From a virus, in the IMG/VR virus record IMGVR_UViG_3300030382_003503, positions 1 through 21,086 of that record: a stretch of DNA of 21,086 nt, one strand, 5' to 3'. Positions 7,566 to 7,789 of this stretch are shown here, piece after piece; position 1 is the first letter of the stretch, and the number at the start of each line of letters is the position of its first letter. The notes under the pieces were generated by a model. That model saw nothing but the letters and a program-made list of their open reading frames with translations. It made no database searches and was not told the DNA's origin. The position numbers and the translations under genes were made by a program.

Positions 7566-7789
7566 GATATTCGGAATTGTGCCTATTGCCCGTTAGGTGT
7601 GAGGCGCAACCGAAACGAGATTGCAGGACGGTCCCCGCTCTATAGCGGGCGGTGTGGCTTCCTGCTTCAAGATTGCTGCGGCGGCGCACGAACGGCGCTC
7701 CGGCTAGCAGCTAGTTGGCGGGGTAACGGCCCACCAAGGCGACCACGGCCCGCAGCATACCACTAAGGCCAGCGCCTAACCGGCAAGGC
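7566..7789 (+). ncRNA. Structured non-coding RNA, multi-branched, with a 16S helix-11-like arm
   Basis: About 225 bases fold through several exact pairings. The closing stem joins GCC 7581-7583, TTGCC 7586-7590 and GTTAGGTG 7592-7599 to CGCCTAAC 7773-7780, GGCAA 7782-7786 and GGC 7787-7789, with a C-C mismatch and a two-base bulge. Inside are GCAGGA 7623-7628 with TCCTGC 7660-7665, enclosing CCCGCT 7634-7639 with AGCGGG 7644-7649 (loop of four), and the eight-bp stem TGCTGCGG 7674-7681 with CCGCAGCA 7750-7757. That stem encloses GGCGC 7683-7687 with GCGCT 7695-7699 and a segment like 16S rRNA helix 11 (7709-7743). No credible protein is encoded, and no known family is recognised. The start is estimated from the promoter and the end from the closing stem. 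Confidence 0.72.

Follow-up and report, generated by a model that had tools for sequence, protein, structure and literature searches.

The non-coding region that follows the gene P0002 in the window, i.e. in the whole 21-kb fragment analysed here (21,086 nucleotides of IMG/VR record IMGVR_UViG_3300030382_003503), may represent the untranslated leader heading a phage late operon, arranged like the pR′-6S-tR′ region of phage lambda and carrying an exchangeable RNA cargo. We favour this reading and would give it about an even chance. It builds on a conserved promoter and conserved hairpins, on covariation in a two-hairpin element termed R, on terminators in the relatives, on the identities of the cargo, on the gene order and on the lack of a conserved reading frame. 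The layout is that of a string of separate elements, beginning with a 5′ hairpin, continuing with a body of variable sequence on a short stem and, in most loci, a terminator, and closing with the two-hairpin element, which reaches to about position 7853. The features of the window are as follows.

6970–7533, plus strand: P0002, a gene of 187 amino acids directly upstream of the promoter
7530–7558, plus strand: promoter TTGACA-17-TATGCG, its hexamer pattern and spacing shared by L006, L007, L008, L028 and L029
7570–7614, plus strand: conserved 5′ hairpin (UUCGG..UUGUGCCU / AGGCGCAA.CCGAA), fold z = -3.07
7623–7665, plus strand: accessory stem-loop with exact pairings, conserved in L006
7674–7757, plus strand: variable body, closed by TGCTGCGG (7674–7681) with CCGCAGCA (7750–7757)
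7703–7749, plus strand (sense): piece of 16S rRNA helix 11, matching Rfam SSU_rRNA_bacteria positions 237–283 with 30.1 bits
7767–7853, plus strand: R element, two adjacent hairpins (GGCC..GGCC and CCCGCACC..GGCTGCGGG) with covariation
7874–8083, plus strand: P0003, a small conserved gene of 69 amino acids and the first gene 3′ of the RNA region

Homologous loci were located in IMG/VR contigs by tblastn with the local ORF and the upstream gene as well as by DNA patterns, yielding L006/L003 (a second record, L002, contains a near-identical locus), L007, L028, L029, L008 and L027. L028 is a second site within the L003 contig, L008 comprises the regulator and promoter only, and L027, at a contig edge, is confined to R and the gene that follows it. 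Even with the window included, the set is limited to five informative loci, and the element is present in only a handful of phages among the IMG/VR contigs searched. On the 83-kb contig IMGVR_UViG_2811995091_000080 two late-leader units with different regulators are found (at ~9.2 kb and 51.9 kb), possibly belonging to two prophages side by side. Terminase relatives and tRNA similarity point to Alphaproteobacteria as the likely host group. No convincing chromosomal copy of R or P0002 was found among 385 genomes, nor of the long leader among 190 genomes, both sets from the class of an alphaproteobacterial MAG; these negatives are weak because the host group itself is only inferred. Scanning for a 16-mer pattern genome-wide gave nothing beyond chance matches, and the genome matches to the L029 regulator were weak and chance-like.

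P0002 probably encodes the late regulator, as judged from the position of the gene. Its counterparts in the same place are 91% identical in L006 and L007 and 75% identical in L008, and in L029 and L028 the position is occupied by a different protein of 207 and 227 amino acids, respectively. No convincing family was found for P0002 in Pfam, PHROG or NCBIfam; it matches no antiterminator family, and a profile search of the PDB gave no Q structure. The AlphaFold model (pLDDT 47.6) was too poor for a fold search or comparison.

The promoter claimed in the first-pass annotation was borne out. The pattern TTGAC(A/C/T)-17-TATG(C/G)(C/G) is found 3′ of the regulator-position gene, with similar hexamers and an exact spacing of 17 nt in six loci, while the sequence of the spacer diverges. 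The order of regulator, promoter, RNA and late genes (terminase and beyond) recurs in the window, L027, L028, L029 and L058 with differing terminase and regulator types. In L008 the regulator and the promoter are kept and a gene stands in place of the RNA, as expected if the slot is a cargo position. P0003, for which no known family was found, is 78–96% identical in L007, L028, L029 and L027. Antisense to its end lies a small Xre-like HTH gene (8073–8309, minus strand), and similar sequence occupies the same place in L028 and L027. Elsewhere in the window, an ORF at 4051–5031 (plus strand) joins a T5orf172/MUG113-type nuclease domain to an O-like replication-initiation C-terminus, and an Rfam match to the SymR antitoxin RNA (5477–5545, minus strand; 32.9 bits, E 0.0076 over the window, gathering score 61) overlaps the start of an HNH gene.

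That the region is a small protein gene instead of an RNA is very improbable. An ORF of 80 amino acids with a CxxC motif (7524–7766) is open through the leader, and tblastn detects it, with 69% identity, in two relatives that are near-identical to each other. However, its start and end differ in every relative, the frame counted from the shared GTG extends over 55, 41, 69, 23 and 15 codons in the five loci, and it opens differently in the long leaders. One ATG overlaps the -10 hexamer of the promoter, no family match was obtained, and the part in common differs so little at the DNA level that no synonymous drift is visible. The protein reading was rejected on this turnover of the frame, no reading frame being conserved, in keeping with the earlier statement that the region has no supportable gene.

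All four pairings described in the first-pass annotation are literally present in the window sequence. The single closed, multi-branched fold of about 225 nt into which they had been assembled was rejected, as the 224-nt fold has a z-score of only -0.97 on the plus strand and -0.81 on the minus strand. The supposed long closing stem, 7586–7599 with 7773–7786, comprises 13 of 14 possible pairs, one of them G-U, but 55 of 300 dinucleotide shuffles hold a pairing at least as good, and the stem is absent in the relatives. Its 5′ arm is invariant among the short-leader relatives, in which the 3′ arm CGCCTAACCGGCAA is changed to CGTCCTTATTGCGACAA or CGTCGCAACGACAA. Both arms fit better locally, the 5′ arm within a hairpin closed by 7577–7584 with 7602–7609, the 3′ arm within one closed by 7767–7770 with 7787–7790. 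Being no better than shuffles and unconserved, the long closing stem was discarded.

The 5′ arm of that stem is thus used, in a different pairing, by the conserved 5′ hairpin. The leader is 100% identical to the window over 72 nt in L007 and 99% over 129 nt in L006, the adjacent gene being 87% identical in DNA, and the 3′ half of the leader, CCGTTAGGTGTGAGGCGCAACCGAA(A/G)CGAGATTG, is found in all five loci. In L028 and L029 the hairpin loop is replaced and about 50 nt longer, and the stem still pairs. The long leaders of these two loci also contain GAAAGCGAGGTGATCC (L028 ~325–345, L029 ~2292–2312), noticed via a weak CC2171 match, which is a near-perfect complement of the 3′ end of 16S rRNA; no start codon follows at normal spacing. 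The two small stems 7623–7628/7660–7665 and 7634–7639/7644–7649, which together make up the accessory stem-loop, are exact and kept in L006 but absent in L007, L028 and L029.

The 8-bp stem 7674–7681/7750–7757 fared better, both of its ends being kept around unrelated interiors in three loci. Its arms recur in L006 (4759/4835) and in L028 (386/450, with a tolerated G-U), and opposite TGCTGCGG the 3′ arm follows the pattern CCGCAG(C/T)A across the window, L006 and L028, the last of which is compact, with three domains within about 195 nt. Among homologues, strong covariation of the kind sought for the four stems is found instead in the R element, which runs beyond the end of the region originally delimited; changes in the 5′ hairpin (U-G to C-G) and in the body stem are compatible but one-sided only.

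The strongest covariation of the whole region resides in R, which extends to about 7853, past the earlier boundary at 7789. In an alignment of six copies 97.5% of the pair cells are standard and five pairs are changed on both sides. The covariation score of 0.229 compares with a shuffled mean of 0.104 (none of 500 shuffles reaches 0.229) and falls to 0.04 or less when the pairing partners are slid; since the copies amount to essentially three sequence types, the evidence is good rather than overwhelming. Within the sequences searched, the model R1 detects the element in this phage group alone. R is positioned just before the late genes and, in four loci, 3′ of the terminator.

Strong terminator-like hairpins lie between body and R in L006 (GCCCTCCC..GGGAGGGC-ATTTTT), L007 (a 13-bp stem), L028 and L029. 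Those of L006 and L029 were read by eye, since their long loops caused the automatic scan to miss them. In the window no intrinsic terminator was found between body and R, so that a terminated leader is at most putative for the window phage. The terminator hairpin of L007 (1166–1224) and L029 (~2538–2595) matches Rfam TEG147 (33.1 bits in L007), and AGUA/GAA within it looks like a bulged-G motif of the sarcin-ricin type.

The body is hypervariable. Host stable-RNA sequence, always in sense orientation, occurs in three of its five distinct versions. In the window this is the helix 11 piece of 47 nt (E 2e-5 in a search over the whole window), which the first-pass annotation had missed; being a fragment and not an rRNA gene, it does not reach the gathering score. 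By blastn it is 91–94% identical over 35 nt to records of the phage collection, several of them annotated as 16S. One substitution breaks a stem pair (C-A), and the minimum-energy fold does not contain the helix 11 hairpin. No tRNA or tmRNA was found in the window. L029 carries a near-complete tRNA-Met(CAT) (60 bits; best match 93% among 190 genomes), presumably of the initiator type, judging from fMet sequences. L007 carries a circularly permuted tRNA-Arg(CCG) at 700–875, in which the 3′ half comes first, followed by a 74-nt insert and then the 5′ half; the two sides of the anticodon stem can still pair. Genomic tRNA-Arg(CCG) genes are matched over 24–26 nt by the 5′ half, and less closely, in their own 3′ half, by the upstream segment. 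The bodies of L006 and L028 gave no stable-RNA match. About a fifth of the region reported as an unrecognised RNA consists of rRNA-like sequence and not of an unknown family. The claim that the family is undescribed agrees with the Rfam comparison, with no match at the gathering threshold in the window; it was correctly recognised that the region is non-coding, that a promoter leads into it and that it has real conserved RNA structure not covered by Rfam, and only the layout proposed for it has to be replaced.

On the late-leader reading, the sigma-70-type promoter directly behind the regulator-position gene would give rise to a short leader RNA, which in most relatives would end at the intrinsic terminator after ~200–300 nt. 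Late expression would then require read-through, presumably brought about by the protein encoded upstream, by the conserved 5′ hairpin or by both, and the read-through transcript would pass the two hairpins of R and enter the packaging and head genes. The insertion-tolerant stretch between 5′ hairpin and terminator would act as a cargo slot for pieces of host stable RNAs, in the window filled by 16S helix 11, whose function as cargo is putative. The proposed match to the Q-pR′-tR′ logic of lambda is a resemblance of layout: a gene of regulator type (putatively so here), a promoter, a leader RNA of ~200 nt (predicted here), a terminator (here in the relatives) and late genes follow one another in both. 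In lambdoid phages the region 3′ of pR′ also carries cargo such as tRNAs. Unlike in lambda, rRNA and tRNA pieces are found in the body here, and an extra conserved two-hairpin element is present. Counted against the late-leader reading are the window copy without terminator, the upstream protein P0002, which is not detectably Q-like, and the position of R 3′ of the terminator. Q requires elements of the late promoter and makes the polymerase ignore terminators (PMC6606751).

Antitermination by RNA only, of the HK022 put type, in which the nascent 5′ hairpin and/or R would bind RNA polymerase and cause it to disregard terminators without the help of a dedicated protein, is improbable. Put is about 70 nt long and consists of two stem-loops, putR being located about 270 nt into its transcript (PMC9378689). 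R resembles it in layout: its two adjacent stem-loops, ~87 nt in total, have stems that covary and internal loops with invariant bases, and they would likewise be part of a phage leader transcript, at the very start of which the leader hairpin is positioned like putL. The leader, however, has one hairpin instead of two, and R differs from put in its position relative to the terminator: in the four loci in which it lies 3′ of the terminator it cannot save that transcript from termination.

The cargo itself permits further readings. The bodies may be neutral insertion scars, i.e. meaningless bits of host rRNA and tRNA captured by illegitimate recombination in tolerant late-leader DNA with frequent recombination in the flanks. 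We consider this less probable than the late leader as such, yet a serious rival because a helix 11 pair is broken and the piece has no known target. The shortness and slight degradation of the 16S piece speak for it, and near-identical flanks around unrelated interiors are also expected from frequent exchange between phages. The body stem kept at both ends with its tolerated G-U, the near-completeness of the L029 tRNA-Met and the fact that all identifiable cargo is structured RNA argue against mere scars. Alternatively, a modular decoy is conceivable, in which a stable scaffold of 5′ hairpin and closing stem shows an exchangeable mimic of host RNA that, in the infected cell, competes for a host nuclease, toxin or RNA-binding protein; we regard this as unlikely, though it could coexist with a late-leader role. 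The permuted tRNA-Arg of L007 has the arrangement of the tRNA-like domain of bacterial Y RNAs, and its order is that of the YrlA module (RF02553; 26 bits, E 0.0024 in a 591-nt search), with the T-arm before the D-arm and a closing anticodon-type stem. The score stands against a family threshold of 69 and concerns the module only, and the window copy has no tRNA-like domain and no YrlA match. As published precedent, tRNAs encoded by phages protect them against anticodon nucleases (PMC11555353), and competitive inhibition of such a nuclease has been suggested for a tRNA-like YrlA domain (PMC7790460). The tRNA-Met of L029 is likewise phage-borne and lies behind a conserved phage promoter, whereas the window cargo is a 16S fragment and no tRNA. 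A Ro60/Y RNA pair was rejected, as no TROVE gene (PF05731) was found in the five records searched, all of them fragments. Against the decoy stand the pair-breaking substitution in the 16S piece and a minimum-energy fold that lacks its hairpin, as well as the bodies of L006 and L028 that match no stable RNA; the shared sense orientation of three cases is weak evidence in its favour. Helix 11 is not known to us as the target of any defence. More specifically, and with slightly less likelihood still, the late promoter might drive an RNA platform whose ends are conserved while its core, of host origin and mimicking rRNA or tRNA, can be swapped (16S helix 11, a tRNA-Met of initiator type or the permuted tRNA-Arg), and which would sequester host or defence factors acting on those RNAs. 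As decoy and neutral capture concern the cargo and each can be combined with a late leader, the likelihoods attached to them and to the late-leader reading overlap.

R would add an apparently undescribed conserved phage RNA element with good covariation. Beyond it, the late-leader locus is one whose core appears to have been replaced repeatedly by RNAs of the host translation apparatus, a permuted tRNA among them. If these cores are decoys, the locus would constitute a modular RNA counter-defence; if they are not, it would still be a clear case of late-leader cargo exchange outside the coliphages.
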